A stretch of DNA of 60,982 nt from contig CAMCVV010000001.1 in assembly GCA_945881905.1 (NCBI GenBank), positions 1 through 60,982 of the forward strand, given 5' to 3'. The notes under the pieces were generated by a model that did no database searches, was not told where the DNA came from, and was given only the letters and a program-made list of their open reading frames with translations. Shown in pieces: positions 45,493 to 52,094 of the stretch. This stretch comes from Paenibacillus alvei. Its GTDB lineage: Bacteria > Bacillota > Bacilli > Paenibacillales > NBRC-103111. Position 1 is the stretch's first letter; every line of letters starts with the position of its first letter. The position numbers and the translations under genes are program-made.

Positions 45493-47460
45493 TTATGTTT
45501 GTGAAAGGATGGCTTGATAAGCTTTCATATACTTCGTGACGGCTAATACGTAAGTAGCATGTGACCATGTCAACGGAGCCACAGAAACAGGATCACCGGT
45601 ATAAGGATCCAATTGCTCAGGTAATATCAGACTTTCCATCGCATGTTGGGACACCCACTCCAAAATACGACGAGGAGAATGGAGGTCTTCGAGTGTTTTG
45701 GCACATTCGATTTCCCATTCAGCAATCCATAGCGTACAGATGATCCATGGATTCCCAGGTACTTGATCGATGTCTGTAGAGCGTTGGAAGTAATAGTCAT
45801 GCTGGTATCTGGCTGATCCACCGATGACGGTTTGAGCGACTAGTCCTTTTTTGTTCGCATTCATCGTACTGACAACACGAGGATCATCCGCAGGTAACAC
45901 CCCGAATTCAAAGATGCCATAGACCGAGCTTTCGAGTGTCAAATCTTTGACCCAGACGTCATCTTTCTTATACAAGCCACGAATAAATCGTTGTTCTTGC
46001 TCATCCCAGAGATGCTTGAGGATACCAGATTTGATCATCAAAGCGGTATGTTTGTATTGATTACTTCGCTCGATATCTCCAAACAAGTGACTAAAGTTAG
46101 AAGCAGCCATCATGCCTCCATATACAGCAGATGCAGTAAAGGTATAAATGCCATAGCGTTCTTCCCATAAATCATAACTCGGATACGGCAGTTCAAGCTC
46201 CTGATCCATATATAGAGACATGAATTTCGCGGCTTTACGAACTAAATTACGATATAGTGATTGTGCAAATTCGATGTTTCCATGGTTGACGAAATCTTGC
46301 CATAAGGCAAAGATGACCAAAGCAGTTTCATCTTCTTGAATCGGTAGTTGTTCTTTACCTGCGTGAATATAAGGATGCCATGATGAACCCACGGTTCCAT
46401 CAGGGTTATACTTGTGATGAAGATAACCTTCGTCGGAAATCGCTTTTGCGCAAAACTGAAAAAAAGGAATAATCATCCCTTGGTACCCTGCCATAGACAT
46501 AGCATAAGCAACGAGTGCTCCATCTCGCGGCCACATATAGCTATAATGATCTCGATTACTTGACATAATATCCGAGTCATTGGCTGCAATAATCGCACCA
46601 TTCACATCAGTTTGTGTACGGACAATAAGTAAACTATGTTTGTACAGACGAATGACCTCCGAAGTTAAGTCACCATATGCTCGCTCTGATTTATTTGCCC
46701 ATTGTTGCCAGTACACTTTCACGCGATCGAGAAGCTTTCCTGCTCCACTTTCTTTCACATACTGGTCTAGCTTCTTCACTTCATCGAGGTTCTTACCTGC
46801 AGACATCCAATAGTACATCGAACTACTTTCGGATGGAGGGATAAATAGTCTGAAGCTGATGGTACTATCTACTGAACCTTGGGAAATGGCATTTCCCATC
46901 AAATGCCCATCTTCTGCATCTCGCCATGTTCCTTCTGCGTTATAAAATCGTTTGACGCCAGTGGTATATTGATAAATTCCTTCTGTACCTGTTGTGCCAT
47001 TAAACATAAAGTAACGATCTTTTTTATAATGGAAAATGGTATTATTATTCGGATAATAAGCAGCAGTATCGCCAACTTCTGTTTCATTGATGACTAAATC
47101 TTGATTAAAAAACACACGTACTTCACGAACCGTGTCGTTCTCGTTGACTATATGAATTCGCTTCAAATATATGTCTTCACGCTGATGAACAGCATCATTG
47201 ATGTGGAGAGTGATCCCCAATCCTGGGTGATGAGCACGGACATCCGTAACGAGGGAATCCTCGATGTACGAAAGGGTGATGTTCCATGCTGAGTCGTCGA
47301 GCCATGCGAACCTTCCGTCTACCCAAATCCCAACGCGACACTGATAACCACCGATATGGTTCAGTTGCCCTACATAAGGATAATAAAGATCACGCAGATA
47401 TGAATATTGATCGAGGTTAATCAGAAACTTCCCGTTTCCGACGACAAGGTGTCTTGGCAT
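45493..47460 (-). CDS. GH15 glucoamylase-like glycoside hydrolase
   Basis: A 655-residue cytosolic-type glucoamylase/trehalase family enzyme. An N-terminal beta-sandwich (about 1-260; YPYVGQLNHIGGYQCRVG) precedes the (alpha/alpha)6 barrel. YMWPRDGALVAYAM, QEDETALVIFALW, DLWEERYG (general acid Glu region) and LPEQLDPYTGDPVSVAPLTWSHA (catalytic base Glu) are the GH15 blocks. There is no signal peptide. The gene follows the GH57-GT4 fusion on the same strand with an 85-base gap, so it likely trims the glucan made or remodelled by that protein. GAAGGAGTGAGG precedes the ATG. Confidence 0.92.
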   Translation of the reverse strand: MPRHLVVGNGKFLINLDQYSYLRDLYYPYVGQLNHIGGYQCRVGIWVDGRFAWLDDSAWNITLSYIEDSLVTDVRAHHPGLGITLHINDAVHQREDIYLKRIHIVNENDTVREVRVFFNQDLVINETEVGDTAAYYPNNNTIFHYKKDRYFMFNGTTGTEGIYQYTTGVKRFYNAEGTWRDAEDGHLMGNAISQGSVDSTISFRLFIPPSESSSMYYWMSAGKNLDEVKKLDQYVKESGAGKLLDRVKVYWQQWANKSERAYGDLTSEVIRLYKHSLLIVRTQTDVNGAIIAANDSDIMSSNRDHYSYMWPRDGALVAYAMSMAGYQGMIIPFFQFCAKAISDEGYLHHKYNPDGTVGSSWHPYIHAGKEQLPIQEDETALVIFALWQDFVNHGNIEFAQSLYRNLVRKAAKFMSLYMDQELELPYPSYDLWEERYGIYTFTASAVYGGMMAASNFSHLFGDIERSNQYKHTALMIKSGILKHLWDEQEQRFIRGLYKKDDVWVKDLTLESSVYGIFEFGVLPADDPRVVSTMNANKKGLVAQTVIGGSARYQHDYYFQRSTDIDQVPGNPWIICTLWIAEWEIECAKTLEDLHSPRRILEWVSQHAMESLILPEQLDPYTGDPVSVAPLTWSHATYVLAVTKYMKAYQAILSQT

Positions 47461-47545: not shown

Positions 47546-50500
47546 CTATAAATTTTTCTGATAGACATCCTCAATCCGCGTTGCAATTCCACAAAGATTA
47601 TAATTTTGTTGCAGATGCACGATCGCGGCTTGCGCAAGAACGATCTGCTGCTGAGGATGCTGAAGTAAATCGATTAGAGAACGAGCTAATTCATCTGAAT
47701 TCTGCGGAGGAACGAGGATCCCTGTGACACCATCTTCAATAATTTCTTGTAAGCCACCAACACGTGATGCAACGACAGGAGTCCCACAAGACATCGCTTC
47801 TAGGCACACCATACCGAACGGCTCGTATAAAGATGGAATCACACAAATATCTGCTCGCTGTAGCAATTGAAATTTATCAACAGCTTGCAAAAAACCTACG
47901 AAGTGAACATGTTTGCCTAATGGCAAAGCCAATTGTTGAAGTTGTTCTCCTATAGGTCCAATTCCTGCAATGATGAGTTGGATGTGAGGAAAATCAGTGA
48001 TTAGCAGTGATAAGGCCTCTAGTAAGATGTGAACTCCTTTTTCTGGGACAAGTCGGCCTAAGAAGCAAAGCAGGGGCTGGTGAACGTGACTCGCGAATGC
48101 TTCCTCTAAAGCTCTTGATGGAGGCAACGTGTCAGGAGACATATCAAAAAAAGTCGAAGCAGATAGGAGTTGAGTCCTATCTTTAGGACAAGTTATACCG
48201 TTGGGAATGACTGTGATAGCTGATTCAGGTATAGAAAAAAGTTGCATAACTTCGTCTTGCATCGCATAGCTACAGGTAATCAATGCATCGGATGCGTGCG
48301 TCAATGCATATTCAAACTGATGGATTCGTTGTTGCAGTGAGGTGTGCAGTTGATTCGAAAACCGCCCTGATTCTGTAGCATGAATCGTAGTGATCAGCGG
48401 GAGTTGAAGTGATTGCTGCAATTCAATGGCAGCGTTATACACGAGCCAATCATGTGCGTGAATCAAGTCAATGTGAATCTGTGGGGAAAGGATATCGACG
48501 ACGAAATCAGCTATCGCGATATTCATTTGAAATACCCAATCCATAAAAAGTACGGGTGGCATAGAAGGTAATAATGAAACGCGATGAACGTGAACACCAG
48601 CGACGAATTCATAAGCAGGAACATCTATACATGCACAGGTAATGATATGTACACGGTGACCATGTTCTGCTAATTGGCGAGACTGATCATAGACAGCAAC
48701 CCCTAGTCCACCTGTAATGTGTGGAGGATATTCCCAAGTGAGTATGAGGATACATCGGGATTTCTCTGTTGACTGGATCTGTAAGTGTAGCTCTTGAGCG
48801 AAAGCCAACTGGCCAGAAATAACTTGTGGACCAGGCACATTTTGCGGTAGTAAACTCGCCAATGACAAATCAGGGAGGATGGATGCGTGTTGTTCAAGTA
48901 AGCTAAGCCATGCCTCATTTTCTTCTAGAAGAACATCTGTATCTGTAACGACGTCGAGCAGTTGATGAAATTGATGGAGGTGTGTCGTGATTCTTTGTTG
49001 TGCATAGGAGGTAAATGTACCAGCATCCATCATGAATGCCCAGTCACTGCTTTGCGCAAGCATAAGTTCTCTTGCCGCTTGGTGAATCATACGATGTTTC
49101 ACAGAAGTGATCATCGATGAATTCAAATAGGATCGTGCAATGTGTATCATGCGATCTTCTGCAGCATGTAACCGCGGGTAGATCCAAGCTGTTTTCGGCT
49201 GAAGCCATACATCTGAATAACCCCCGCGTCCCCAACTCGATAGAGGCAAGGTCGCTTGGTATTGTGGAGGGTATTGCTGCAGATACTCACTTACATGTAT
49301 CGAGGAAATACCAGATTGGTGTTGTAACTTCTGTAATACAGCTTCGAGCCAAGTAGGACCTTCATACCACCAGTGACCGAACAACTCTGCATCAAAGCAA
49401 CAAATACTGATAGGTGGATAAGGAGTATCTCTTGTTTGCGACAAGTGTCTGAGTTGTTTTGCGCATGCACGAACGAAGTGTTCTGCATGTTGCTCTGCTT
49501 GATACGCAGCTTTCCCTTGATCATAGGGCTGTTTCTGCTCCGTTGCTCCGGTAATTCGAAAGTATTTGAAACCTATGTGCGTACGGATTTCATCTAGAAG
49601 GAGAAAAGGCTTAATATAATTAAATTCGTCCGAGTCATCTTGACCTAGGTCAAAACCAATATCTCGATAGTATTCTCGATATAAGGGATCGCTCGGATAT
49701 CCATCATGTGCATTCCACACGTGTTCACTTGCTTCACGATCTCGAGCAAATGCAGCTGTACCACTGGGTGTCCACACAGGACGATGTGAATATGGTTCGG
49801 GATGAAGTAAGGTAGGGTCAAGATTGATGTCATGTGGATGTGGATGTGGGGCATGAACCCTATCGGTTGCTGCGCGCAGGGCTTGATCGTCAATGAGGAT
49901 ATATCGAACTCCCAACGCTTGCAAGTGGCGCTCAATCTCTGGAGAATACCCACACTCAGGCAACCAAATTCCTGCAGGCATGCAATCAAAATGACGTTGA
50001 AATTCAGTTAGTGCAGCGTCAAGTTGCATGTGTAGGATTTCTGTATTCTTGCATAGCGGTAAGAAAGCATGTGTCGCTGCACAAACCATTAGTTCAAGCA
50101 AACCTTGTTTTTGCAAATCCGCAAATCTTCGAATAAGATCACACTGCAGATCGTCATAGAGCACAAGTAATTGTTTGTAACGTTTGGCGTAATGCTCAGC
50201 TGTAACAAGCAAAGCAGGTTGTGCGTGTAATCGAATGACTTCCTTCTCGGAAAGCTCAACTAATCGAGCTACATATAAGCGTGCCCTTCGCTTCATTTCT
50301 TCGTCATCTAGCATTGCAAGCAGTGTCGGAGATAATGAAAGAGTTAGGCGTATCGAGACATTCGCTTGTATCAGGTGAACACACATCTCGATGAGTGGCA
50401 AATAAACATCGACAAGAGCTTCGTAATACCATTTCTCTTCGATCGTCAGGAAATCGGAAGGTTGTTTGACATAAGGCAAATGAGCATGAAGGACAATCGC

Positions 50501-50596
50501 TACGAAGCCATCATGACGATGTTGCGCATTCAACAGAGCAGAGTGCTTATCTCGATGAAGTGAACGACTATCAATCAGCACAGAACAATCATTCAT
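47546..50596 (-). CDS. GH57-GT4 fusion (glucan branching enzyme plus glycogen-synthase-like domain)
   Basis: A 1016-residue two-enzyme fusion. Residues about 30-590 are a GH57 domain: IVLHAHLPYVKQ (region 1), GIWLPECGYSPEIERHL (catalytic Glu), CCFDAELFGHWWYEG (acid/base Asp) and a helical end domain typical of 1,4-alpha-glucan branching enzymes. Residues about 620-1016 are GT4: LTWEYPPHITGGLGVAVYDQSRQLA (nucleotide-sugar loop), PNGITCP, FLGRLVPEKGVHILLEAL and the EX7E segment EPFGMVCLE. The start ATG 50596 overlaps the end of the DUF4912 gene; a longer upstream ATG reading runs into that gene and is rejected. The combination suggests that one polypeptide elongates and branches an alpha-glucan. 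Confidence 0.9.
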   Translation of the reverse strand: MNDCSVLIDSRSLHRDKHSALLNAQHRHDGFVAIVLHAHLPYVKQPSDFLTIEEKWYYEALVDVYLPLIEMCVHLIQANVSIRLTLSLSPTLLAMLDDEEMKRRARLYVARLVELSEKEVIRLHAQPALLVTAEHYAKRYKQLLVLYDDLQCDLIRRFADLQKQGLLELMVCAATHAFLPLCKNTEILHMQLDAALTEFQRHFDCMPAGIWLPECGYSPEIERHLQALGVRYILIDDQALRAATDRVHAPHPHPHDINLDPTLLHPEPYSHRPVWTPSGTAAFARDREASEHVWNAHDGYPSDPLYREYYRDIGFDLGQDDSDEFNYIKPFLLLDEIRTHIGFKYFRITGATEQKQPYDQGKAAYQAEQHAEHFVRACAKQLRHLSQTRDTPYPPISICCFDAELFGHWWYEGPTWLEAVLQKLQHQSGISSIHVSEYLQQYPPQYQATLPLSSWGRGGYSDVWLQPKTAWIYPRLHAAEDRMIHIARSYLNSSMITSVKHRMIHQAARELMLAQSSDWAFMMDAGTFTSYAQQRITTHLHQFHQLLDVVTDTDVLLEENEAWLSLLEQHASILPDLSLASLLPQNVPGPQVISGQLAFAQELHLQIQSTEKSRCILILTWEYPPHITGGLGVAVYDQSRQLAEHGHRVHIITCACIDVPAYEFVAGVHVHRVSLLPSMPPVLFMDWVFQMNIAIADFVVDILSPQIHIDLIHAHDWLVYNAAIELQQSLQLPLITTIHATESGRFSNQLHTSLQQRIHQFEYALTHASDALITCSYAMQDEVMQLFSIPESAITVIPNGITCPKDRTQLLSASTFFDMSPDTLPPSRALEEAFASHVHQPLLCFLGRLVPEKGVHILLEALSLLITDFPHIQLIIAGIGPIGEQLQQLALPLGKHVHFVGFLQAVDKFQLLQRADICVIPSLYEPFGMVCLEAMSCGTPVVASRVGGLQEIIEDGVTGILVPPQNSDELARSLIDLLQHPQQQIVLAQAAIVHLQQNYNLCGIATRIEDVYQKNL

Positions 50597-51125
50597 GAGA
50601 AGGTACTTCCTTCGCGATCGAATGAGCCCAATCAGCTGTCGGTGAGTAAAGACTATATGCGGAAAATTGCTCAACAGAGTGAGAGTGCAGTCTAGCATGA
50701 GCAAACCAATCTTCAAGGAGGTGCGCTGAGATAGCAGTGTATCTTGGACTCGAACCAGCTTCTGCAGGTAAAGTCACTAAATGAGAGCGAAGTAAAGGAA
50801 CGAACGGTTGTTCTTCATCATTAATGCCCAGCTCAGCGAATAGAACACTACCCGGTGGAAGGTTGTCTATGAATATGTGGTCCATTCCTGCAAGCGAATA
50901 AGAAAGCAAAGGTGAAGCTAAGGGAGCTTCAGAAGATTGCTTCGTTACATCATATACGTGCAGAGTAAATGAAAGCTTTTTACGTGTAAAGCCGAAATGT
51001 CTAGAGACCATATTCATTTTCCTTGAAGATACATGCCAGTATGCAAAAAGCGCTTGTGGATGAACAGCTACCACGTACAATTGGTCATGATTCACTGTTC
51101 TGTAGTGGAGTATATTTCTCGTCAT
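50589..51125 (-). CDS. DUF4912 domain protein
   Basis: A 178-residue cytosolic protein with the DUF4912 pattern: YVVAVHPQALFAYWHVS, LHVYDVT, DHIFIDNLPPGSVLFAELG and PLLRSHLVTLPA. DUF4912 proteins are commonly found beside GH57/GT4 alpha-glucan genes; a carbohydrate-binding or scaffolding role is inferred from this. It opens the glucan operon, its stop overlapping the start of the fusion gene by eight bases. AGGTG precedes the ATG. Confidence 0.9.
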   Translation of the reverse strand: MTRNILHYRTVNHDQLYVVAVHPQALFAYWHVSSRKMNMVSRHFGFTRKKLSFTLHVYDVTKQSSEAPLASPLLSYSLAGMDHIFIDNLPPGSVLFAELGINDEEQPFVPLLRSHLVTLPAEAGSSPRYTAISAHLLEDWFAHARLHSHSVEQFSAYSLYSPTADWAHSIAKEVPSHE

Positions 51126-51416: not shown

Positions 51417-51674
51417 GCATGGTTCACTCCTTCGATACCGTTTCACGGATGATATAGTTCTCAAAATCATCTTATGCAAGCAAGGATGTATTTATTCGCC
51501 CAAATCGAGATGAATGGATATTGAAGATGAGTATGTAATCTTAAGGAACAATTACACAAATAAGGTGATAAGAAAAACACTAAATTCTCTTGAAGTAAAA
51601 AAAGGAATTTGGTAATCGATGAACGAATATTTTAGGATATGAGATATGCTTTGAACAGAATGGAGGTCGTATAC

Positions 51675-52094
51675 ATGAGTTTCTGTTGTGGAGCTAGTAT
51701 GATAGGTACCAAAGGTACATTAAAACATATTCGAACGCAAATACATCACGTACCGATTTTGTTTTGTCCTGTGTGTCATCGTATTGAAGTCCATCATCTC
51801 ATCAAAAATGAATACGATATGTTATCAGAATATGCACACAGTGATGGCGCGCATGAAGTAGATTTTGCTGAATACGCGGAAGCTAAAGAAAAATTCCTTT
51901 ATGATAATTGTGTGAATCATGAAGGGGAAGAACCGATGACTATTGTCGATAATCAAATTGACATGGCGTTAGATTTACTTACCTTAGCCAAAGCTATGGC
52001 TGATGAAAAGTGGGAAGAACAGCTCATAGGAAGACTTATCGTACTTAGCTCTCGACGCGGTAAGTTACTCCGTCGGAAATCAGCGAAAGCATAG
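51675..52094 (+). CDS. small protein with N-terminal Cys pair zinc-ribbon-like segment
   Basis: A 139-residue protein. ATG 51675 follows GGAGG at eight bases. MSFCCGA and LFCPVCHRIEVH give two Cys pairs about 28 residues apart, resembling the YgiT-type zinc ribbon, followed by an acidic helical region (AEYAEAKEKFLYDNCVNHEGEEP) and a basic C-terminus (RRGKLLRRKSAKA). I know no exact family. No antitoxin partner is adjacent. Confidence 0.65.
   Translation: MSFCCGASMIGTKGTLKHIRTQIHHVPILFCPVCHRIEVHHLIKNEYDMLSEYAHSDGAHEVDFAEYAEAKEKFLYDNCVNHEGEEPMTIVDNQIDMALDLLTLAKAMADEKWEEQLIGRLIVLSSRRGKLLRRKSAKA

Follow-up and report, generated by a model that had tools for sequence, protein, structure and literature searches.

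A GH57-GT4 fusion protein of Paenibacillus alvei as a candidate non-classical alpha-glucan unit with a DUF4912 partner

The window, that is, the whole analysed stretch of 60,982 nucleotides from Paenibacillus alvei (assembly GCA_945881905.1, contig CAMCVV010000001.1, positions 1 to 60,982), encodes a protein in which a GH57 glycoside hydrolase domain and a GT4 glycosyltransferase domain are joined in one polypeptide, with a DUF4912 gene upstream and a GH15 gene downstream. By family, linkage and gene neighbourhood, this system appears to be a non-classical alpha-glucan unit in which GT4 and GH57 are fused and DUF4912 is the partner. The reading that we favour, with moderate confidence, is a cytosolic unit for alpha-glucan synthesis and turnover of the mycobacterial Rv3032/Rv3031 type, in which DUF4912 serves as a glucan-binding partner.

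In the proposed mechanism, the GT4 domain would add glucose from a nucleotide-glucose donor onto an alpha-1,4-glucan, and the GH57 domain would cut and re-transfer segments, which would give alpha-1,6 branches and, to some extent, hydrolysis and alpha-1,4 transfer. The DUF4912 protein, predicted to be non-catalytic and FN3-like, probably binds the glucan or keeps the enzyme on it, and the GH15 protein would trim the polymer and release glucose. The donor in the window genome would most likely be ADP-glucose made by GlgC/GlgD, whose genes lie elsewhere. In relatives with another type of the fusion (type A, below), a dedicated nucleotidyltransferase probably supplies nucleoside diphosphate glucose (NDP-glucose).

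Fusion protein and adjoining genes in the window

The initial annotation had described a single frame of 1016 codons with complete active-site blocks for a GH57 and a GT4 enzyme, overlapped upstream by a DUF4912 gene and followed by a GH15 gene. Each of these features was recovered (Table 1). Pfam placed the GH57 domain, BE_C and both GT4 halves in one frame, with Glyco_transf_4 at amino acids (aa) 629-801 (E 1.4e-26) and Glycos_transf_1 at aa 838-989 (E 2.8e-43), and the window protein retained all 27 motif positions that were read. The open reading frame (ORF) spans 47546-50716(-). The ATG at 50596, with AAGGAA located 10 nucleotides (nt) before it, gives the 1016-codon protein, and the TTG at 50716 gives a mechanical form of 1056 aa.

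The GH57 part matched PF03065 with 87.1 bits and BE_C with 89.2 bits and carries the catalytic Glu and Asp in its motifs. These residues, E214 and D402, were invariant in alignments of 13 and 34 rows, and from their position in the GH57 motifs we take them to be the nucleophile and the acid/base, respectively. The GT4 part matched Glyco_transf_4 (93.9 bits) and Glycos_transf_1 (147.9 bits) and showed a GT-B fold and an E-x7-E motif. R848, K853 and E925-x7-E933 were invariant in 34 fusions and presumably fill the corresponding GT4 motif roles.

The upstream gene product was recognised by PF16258 (53.8 bits against a cut-off of 29.4), and the downstream one, which lies beyond the interval 47546-51125 covered by the initial annotation, by PF00723 (98 bits against 22). 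The GH15 protein also matched the oligosaccharide amylase family TIGR01577 over nearly its full length, with 316 bits against a cut-off of 820.7. A simple scan found no strongly hydrophobic N-terminal segment in the fusion, DUF4912 or GH15 proteins, and for this reason the system reads as cytosolic.

Table 1. Positions of the fusion gene, its domains, the adjoining genes and the gene that accompanies the fusion in relatives
Feature	Position	Strand	Details
GH57-GT4 fusion protein	47546..50596	(-)	1016 codons, intact, single frame
GH57 catalytic domain	49256..50500	(-)	aa 33-447; Pfam E 1.7e-24
BE_C helical domain	48863..49171	(-)	aa 476-578; Pfam E 2.6e-25
GT4 domain, GT-B fold	47555..48751	(-)	about aa 616-1014
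DUF4912 gene	50589..51125	(-)	178 aa; Pfam E 2.8e-14
Overlap of DUF4912 stop and fusion start	50589..50596	(-)	8 nt, ATGAATGA
GH15 family hydrolase	45493..47460	(-)	655 aa; Pfam E 7.8e-28; 85 nt after the fusion stop
Nucleotidyltransferase-mutase gene	L044:7780-10230	(-)	homologues in L045-L047, L051, L055, L057, L061, L063, L080, L082, L118, L139

Distribution of the fusion and of DUF4912 in relatives

Among 104 genomes of the family, the GH57-GT4 fusion was read from the search listing in 61, and some match to it occurred in 104 of 104, as expected for GT4. Among loci from named genomes, 16 of 80 were called fused; a 17th, in P. tyrfis, gave a near end-to-end tblastn match that the ORF script had not seen. 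These loci were the best 80 of at least 589, so the figures anchored on GH57 describe close relatives. Fused loci came from Paenibacillus, Brevibacillus, Fictibacillus, Alicyclobacillus, Pelotomaculum, Moorella, Thermincola, Heliobacteriaceae and others, and full-length fusions were approximately 41-50% identical within the family and 33-42% in other families. A sequencing-derived fusion is thereby ruled out, and the objection raised in the initial annotation, that homologues might always be separate genes, fails with the fused homologues found across Bacillota. The DUF4912 and GH15 partners were likewise conserved in many relatives. The two domains also occurred unfused: several other Bacillota carry GH57 and GT4 as adjacent separate genes, usually converging, with a nucleotidyltransferase-mutase gene beside GT4, and six Omnitrophota loci (L numbers denote loci and G and C numbers genomes and contigs throughout) have the gene order GT4, DUF4912, GH57.

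The fusion tree contained two clades, A and B, each with support of 100/100. The window protein fell in B, adjacent to P. selenitireducens, and this clade has long branches. Type A was present in 47 of the 104 genomes, type B in 38 and both in 24; types were assigned by hand from the listing, excluding G004 (parts on two contigs) and G017 and G020 (GT4 without GH57) and including G035, whose type B copy is in two frames. No type A fusion was found in the window genome. When the 27 catalytic and motif positions were read across 34 fusions, there were two deviating cells only, a histidine-to-tyrosine change in GH57 and a glycine-to-glutamate change in GT4, each in one type A protein.

For the separate GH57 and GT4 trees, 23 fused proteins out of the 34 and a selected subset of the unfused genes were used. 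All fused forms used in the GH57 tree lay on one side of a 100/95 branch, which is compatible with one origin. In the GT4 tree, separate Bacillota GT4 genes fell inside the fused set with weak backbone support; a later split of the fusion in some lineages is therefore possible. Separately, the locus L100, labelled as an Actinobacteria metagenome-assembled genome, was very similar in GH57 and GT4 to the Peptococcaceae locus L098 (path of about 0.1 changes per site per tree), which suggests a mis-binned contig or a recent transfer.

DUF4912 accompanied GH57 in most loci. Of the 80 GH57 loci fetched, one ended at a contig edge and four were uncalled by the ORF script; in the 75 evaluable ones, DUF4912 lay directly upstream on the same strand in 69 (median gap 9 nt) and downstream in one, and there was none in five. 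It thus stood beside GH57 in 70/75 of these loci, and the same was seen in 48/50 Bacillota loci anchored on DUF4912, which was present in 191 of 398 sampled Bacillota genomes. For the 30 best-scoring DUF4912 copies, GH57 adjoined every one, seen in part as these loci end 1.5 kb from the match. Twenty lower-scoring copies from 17 genomes, hand-picked and thus non-random, were taken from the lower part of the list; GH57 adjoined 18 of them (in reverse order in L199 and L201), another stood beside a GT4 fusion whose GH57 part is degenerate, and the last had no neighbour match. The order DUF4912-GH57-GlgC was found in L197, L198 and L200, followed in L198, where the next gene was tested, by GT5 GlgA; the GH57 enzyme of these loci apparently serves the classical pathway. 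DUF4912 was apparently fused to GT4 in L050, with 24.4 bits under the Pfam cut-off of 29.4, and a weak match to a custom profile hints at a DUF4912-GT4 fusion in one Fibrobacter locus. The window genome gave one DUF4912 match.

Residues 14-123 of the DUF4912 protein were predicted to form an FN3-like beta-sandwich, with a block-mean predicted local distance difference test (pLDDT) of 83-96 over residues 11-120. The model was matched to the FN3 structure 6x38 (Z 10.2, root-mean-square deviation (rmsd) 2.5, 88 aligned), and a shared fold of this kind shows no function. The listed structural neighbours were FN3-type domains, with no starch-binding family among them, in a listing that excludes nothing. 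A non-catalytic glucan-binding or scaffolding partner would fit these neighbourhoods and this predicted fold. As a further observation, DUF4912 proteins of other groups (L112, L123, L155, L097 and L203) carry Rho_N, helix-hairpin-helix or glucodextranase-B-like domains, in part with scores under the cut-off; a nucleic-acid-type domain joined to a glucan-linked DUF4912 is odd.

Donor supply and classical glycogen genes

A protein of approximately 800 residues, in which a nucleotidyltransferase domain and hexapeptide repeats are combined with a phosphohexomutase-like domain, was counted in 45 family genomes. These were taken from 50 matching genomes, and G067, G070, G080, G088 and G089, which have the nucleotidyltransferase part only, were dropped. 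In 44 of the 45, the gene immediately followed the type A fusion in the same orientation; the exception was G001, with the gene on another contig and in two frames. It occurred in 45/47 genomes with type A, in 0/14 with type B alone and never without a fusion (Fisher p 1.7e-27 for its association with type A, uncorrected for kinship). The window genome held no such protein at E 1e-60.

The closest PDB sequence to this protein was the UTP-glucose-1-phosphate uridylyltransferase 8x7s (E 3.7e-67), followed by the nucleotidyl transferase family protein 7whr and then by mannose-1-phosphate guanylyltransferases; its scores were under the cut-off for all 25 NCBIfam families listed. A motif scan of ten copies detected the nucleotidyltransferase start motif in 10/10, a partial serine-loop match only in L046, and no metal- or sugar-loop motif. 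In two copies aligned to 1wqa, the serine, metal, sugar and phosphate loops were altered, with the serine itself still aligned. Because metal-loop and phosphate-loop residues were missing where checked, the mutase-like domain is probably not a working mutase. The altered or absent loop motifs weaken the idea of a bifunctional mutase/nucleotidyltransferase that makes NDP-glucose from glucose-6-phosphate.

The window genome (G000; 2.40 Mb, 87 contigs, 99.6% complete) encodes GT5 GlgA (575 bits to TIGR02095), GlgD (427 bits to TIGR02092, cut-off 236.6), GlgC (477 bits) and GH13 GlgB (898 bits) on contig C19, and an alpha-glucan phosphorylase (795 bits to TIGR02094) on contig C16. The remark in the initial annotation that no glgC or glgP appears does not hold at the level of the genome, and the presence of these five proteins rules out an organism with no donor pathway. 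Since GlgBCDA and the phosphorylase are encoded on other contigs, the fusion is, judged by gene content, a second alpha-glucan system here, and a source of ADP-glucose exists because GlgC/GlgD are encoded elsewhere in the genome. For debranching, no GDE_C was found and GlgB was the sole GH13 found, in a search that did not extend to further debranching or disproportionating families such as GH77. The other 103 family genomes measure 4.1 to 10.3 Mb; the window genome is small, yet it contains two alpha-glucan systems.

GlgC was over the cut-off in 98 of the 104 family genomes. Weaker but clear relatives were found in G035 and G078, and distant ones only in G001, G007, G103 and G088. GT5 GlgA was over the cut-off in 10 of 14 chosen genomes, and the same four genomes gave nothing above 83 bits. 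G001, G007 and G103, which are given as 99% complete with contamination of 3, 1 and 7%, contain the fusion and the nucleotidyltransferase-mutase protein and lack both GlgC and GT5 GlgA; these three genomes appear to have the fusion route only, and G088 neither route. GlgC was present in 16/16 fusion genomes without the nucleotidyltransferase-mutase protein. Such a distribution is expected if GT4 draws NDP-glucose from either source, and, at three genomes, it is suggestive of this use rather than proof of it.

A wider proposal can be made only tentatively: that the system is a further, self-contained bacterial glycogen route, independent of GlgC and GlgA, composed of the nucleotidyltransferase with a degenerate mutase domain (supplying NDP-glucose, perhaps UDP-glucose), the GT4-GH57 enzyme as elongating and branching chain, and DUF4912 as its regular glucan-binding subunit across many phyla. 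If some Bacillota do make a glycogen-type polymer without GlgC or GlgA, predictions of glycogen storage based on GlgC/GlgA alone would overlook such organisms. The uncharacterised DUF4912 would gain a testable role as a GH57 partner, and a synthase and a brancher in a single chain would be a useful tool for studying the coupling of chain growth and branching.

Known systems, branching and product

The closest precedent, by family and linkage, is mycobacterial: Rv3032 (GT4) and Rv3031 (GH57) are clustered together, and methylglucose lipopolysaccharide has been proposed as the product of the cluster (PMC2674218). UDP- and ADP-glucose are the presumed donors of Rv3032, to which one study assigns little or no role in bulk alpha-glucan, contrary to an earlier report (PMC4981310). 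A survey names the set of GlgC, Rv3032 and GlgB 'non-classical pathway II' (PMC6355812), and Rv3032 is described as more widespread than GlgA among bacteria (PMC6686919). The linkage of a GT4 alpha-1,4-glucosyltransferase with a GH57 branching enzyme, both predicted in this case, recurs here as a fusion and in other Bacillota as adjacent genes. The mycobacterial genes are separate and stand in a methylglucose lipopolysaccharide cluster, whereas the window has a single polypeptide accompanied by DUF4912 and GH15. For a GT4 of Methanoculleus, encoded beside glgB and a GH57 gene, a 2024 review raises the possibility of a glycogen synthase not yet characterised (PMC11046441); by its description, it shares the linkage of GT4 and GH57 in an alpha-glucan gene cluster but is archaeal and encoded separately. 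Classical GlgBCDA, as on contig C19, also elongates and branches alpha-1,4-glucan, but with a GT5 synthase and a GH13 branching enzyme, of other families and from separate genes. In the literature searched, with subscription papers mostly outside its scope, nothing was found on a GH57-GT4 fusion or on DUF4912 function; the name DUF4912 occurred in one paper, on a cotton transcriptome.

The Rv3032/Rv3031-type reading is favoured by the conservation of the fusion with its catalytic residues, the adjacency of the same domains in other Bacillota, the structural models (below), the DUF4912/GlgC neighbourhoods and the apparent DUF4912-GT4 fusion of L050, the three genomes without GlgC and GlgA, the presence of GlgC in every fusion genome that has no nucleotidyltransferase-mutase protein, and the nucleotidyltransferase behind type A. 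Several points weigh against it. A full classical pathway is already in the genome, which leaves no obvious need for a second glycogen synthase, and in one study of M. tuberculosis the deletion of Rv3032 did not significantly alter alpha-glucan levels (PMC4981310). No glycogen-synthase or maltose-1-phosphate-synthase model among those listed (best 25 of 52 families) was matched by the GT4 part above its cut-off, and for this reason its acceptor could differ. The GH57 loop of the relatives is of the short AmyC type and not the long loop with a tyrosine tip that strong branching enzymes have. Finally, GH57 was absent from G017 and G020 and had degenerated in L192, with GT4 kept.

Regarding the GT4 part, its model was nearest, among the matches listed, to MshA (Z 43.5), sucrose-phosphate synthase (42.5) and GlgM (6tvp; 41.0). 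It scored 92.4 bits to the GT5 GlgA family TIGR02095 (cut-off 328.45). Its best NCBIfam match was TIGR02149 (GlgM/glgA_Coryne), with 144.3 bits against 302.4; it shares the GT4 fold and motifs with the GlgM/Corynebacterium-type GlgA but scores far below the cut-off of that family.

GlgC is over the cut-off in 98 of 104 family genomes, the window genome among them, so that a second pathway would be redundant. This favours the alternative that GlgBCDA makes glycogen and the fusion makes a specialised oligomeric alpha-glucan or conjugate, comparable to mycobacterial methylglucose lipopolysaccharide, for which the clustering of Rv3032 and Rv3031 is a precedent (PMC2674218, PMC4981310). We regard this as unlikely. 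The adjoining GH15 suggests an unmodified glucan, three genomes have the fusion system only, and DUF4912-GH57 stands beside GlgC in three loci. No shared methyl- or acyltransferase was recognised beside the fusion either, a weak argument as unlabelled neighbours were not identified.

The structure closest to the GH57 model was AmyC (2b5d; Z 45.0, rmsd 2.4, 511 aligned, 35% identity; phmmer E 2.6e-99), followed by TK1436 (Z 40.8). Against the Thermococcales and Thermus branching-enzyme models, the GH57 part remained below the cut-offs (NF041133, 314.5 vs 1000 bits; NF041566, 288.9 vs 920 bits). Across 34 fusions, the median length of the G229-P273 segment was 26 residues, as in AmyC by alignment count. 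That of the window protein was the longest of the 34, with 45 residues, His/Pro-rich, partly with pLDDT <50 and with tyrosines only near its ends. AmyC, a stand-alone enzyme with no GT4 domain, is described as a branching enzyme whose hydrolysis reaches up to 30% (PMC6616209). Enzymes lacking the long loop and the strands made up 92% of the GH57 branching enzymes analysed in one report, which gives 10.5 mU/mg for the T. maritima GH57 enzyme vs 480-550 for the loop-bearing T. kodakarensis enzyme (PMC10346327).

The initial annotation had derived elongation, branching and trimming of an alpha-glucan from the families. The families and catalytic residues were confirmed, but branching cannot be granted in the same way: because the GH57 part is AmyC-like with a short segment in the relatives, its branching strength is uncertain and strong branching is not to be assumed. 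A lesser need for GH57 would be consistent with its loss in G017 and G020 and its decay in L192 while GT4 stays. The second GH57 match in the window genome (G000:C64:9650-9937(-); L077:4435-5214(-)) was a polysaccharide deacetylase (PF01522, 111.8 bits).

The AmyC-length segment and the hydrolysis reported for AmyC, together with another GH57 enzyme interpreted as a 4-alpha-glucanotransferase (PMC11206854), would also suit a unit mainly for glucan remodelling or breakdown, in which GT4 would transfer glucose to a different acceptor and GH57 would be a 4-alpha-glucanotransferase or an amylase, like AmyC. This appears quite improbable, since AmyC still branches, and both the GT4 motif residues kept even where GH57 was lost and the nucleotidyltransferase that accompanies type A in 45/47 genomes point to synthesis. 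The 14 GT4 positions read were kept in the checked relatives, with one change in G020 and another in the second gene of G007.

These same GT4 positions argue against ordinary redundancy, in which type B would be a lineage-specific paralogue that drifts to loss with no distinct role. The separate, long-branched type B clade, the lost or degenerate GH57 parts and the failure to find type A or the nucleotidyltransferase in the window genome would fit such drift. However, in a genome of 2.4 Mb the type B copy has stayed intact, together with DUF4912 and GH15, and the window protein retains every motif position read; we give this explanation very little credence.

Divergent from the DUF4912 gene, the window also contains an ORF of 151 aa with a CPVC motif at 51639-52094(+). 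It had no Pfam or NCBIfam match, and relatives with 65-71% identity were present in 12/20 family loci inspected.

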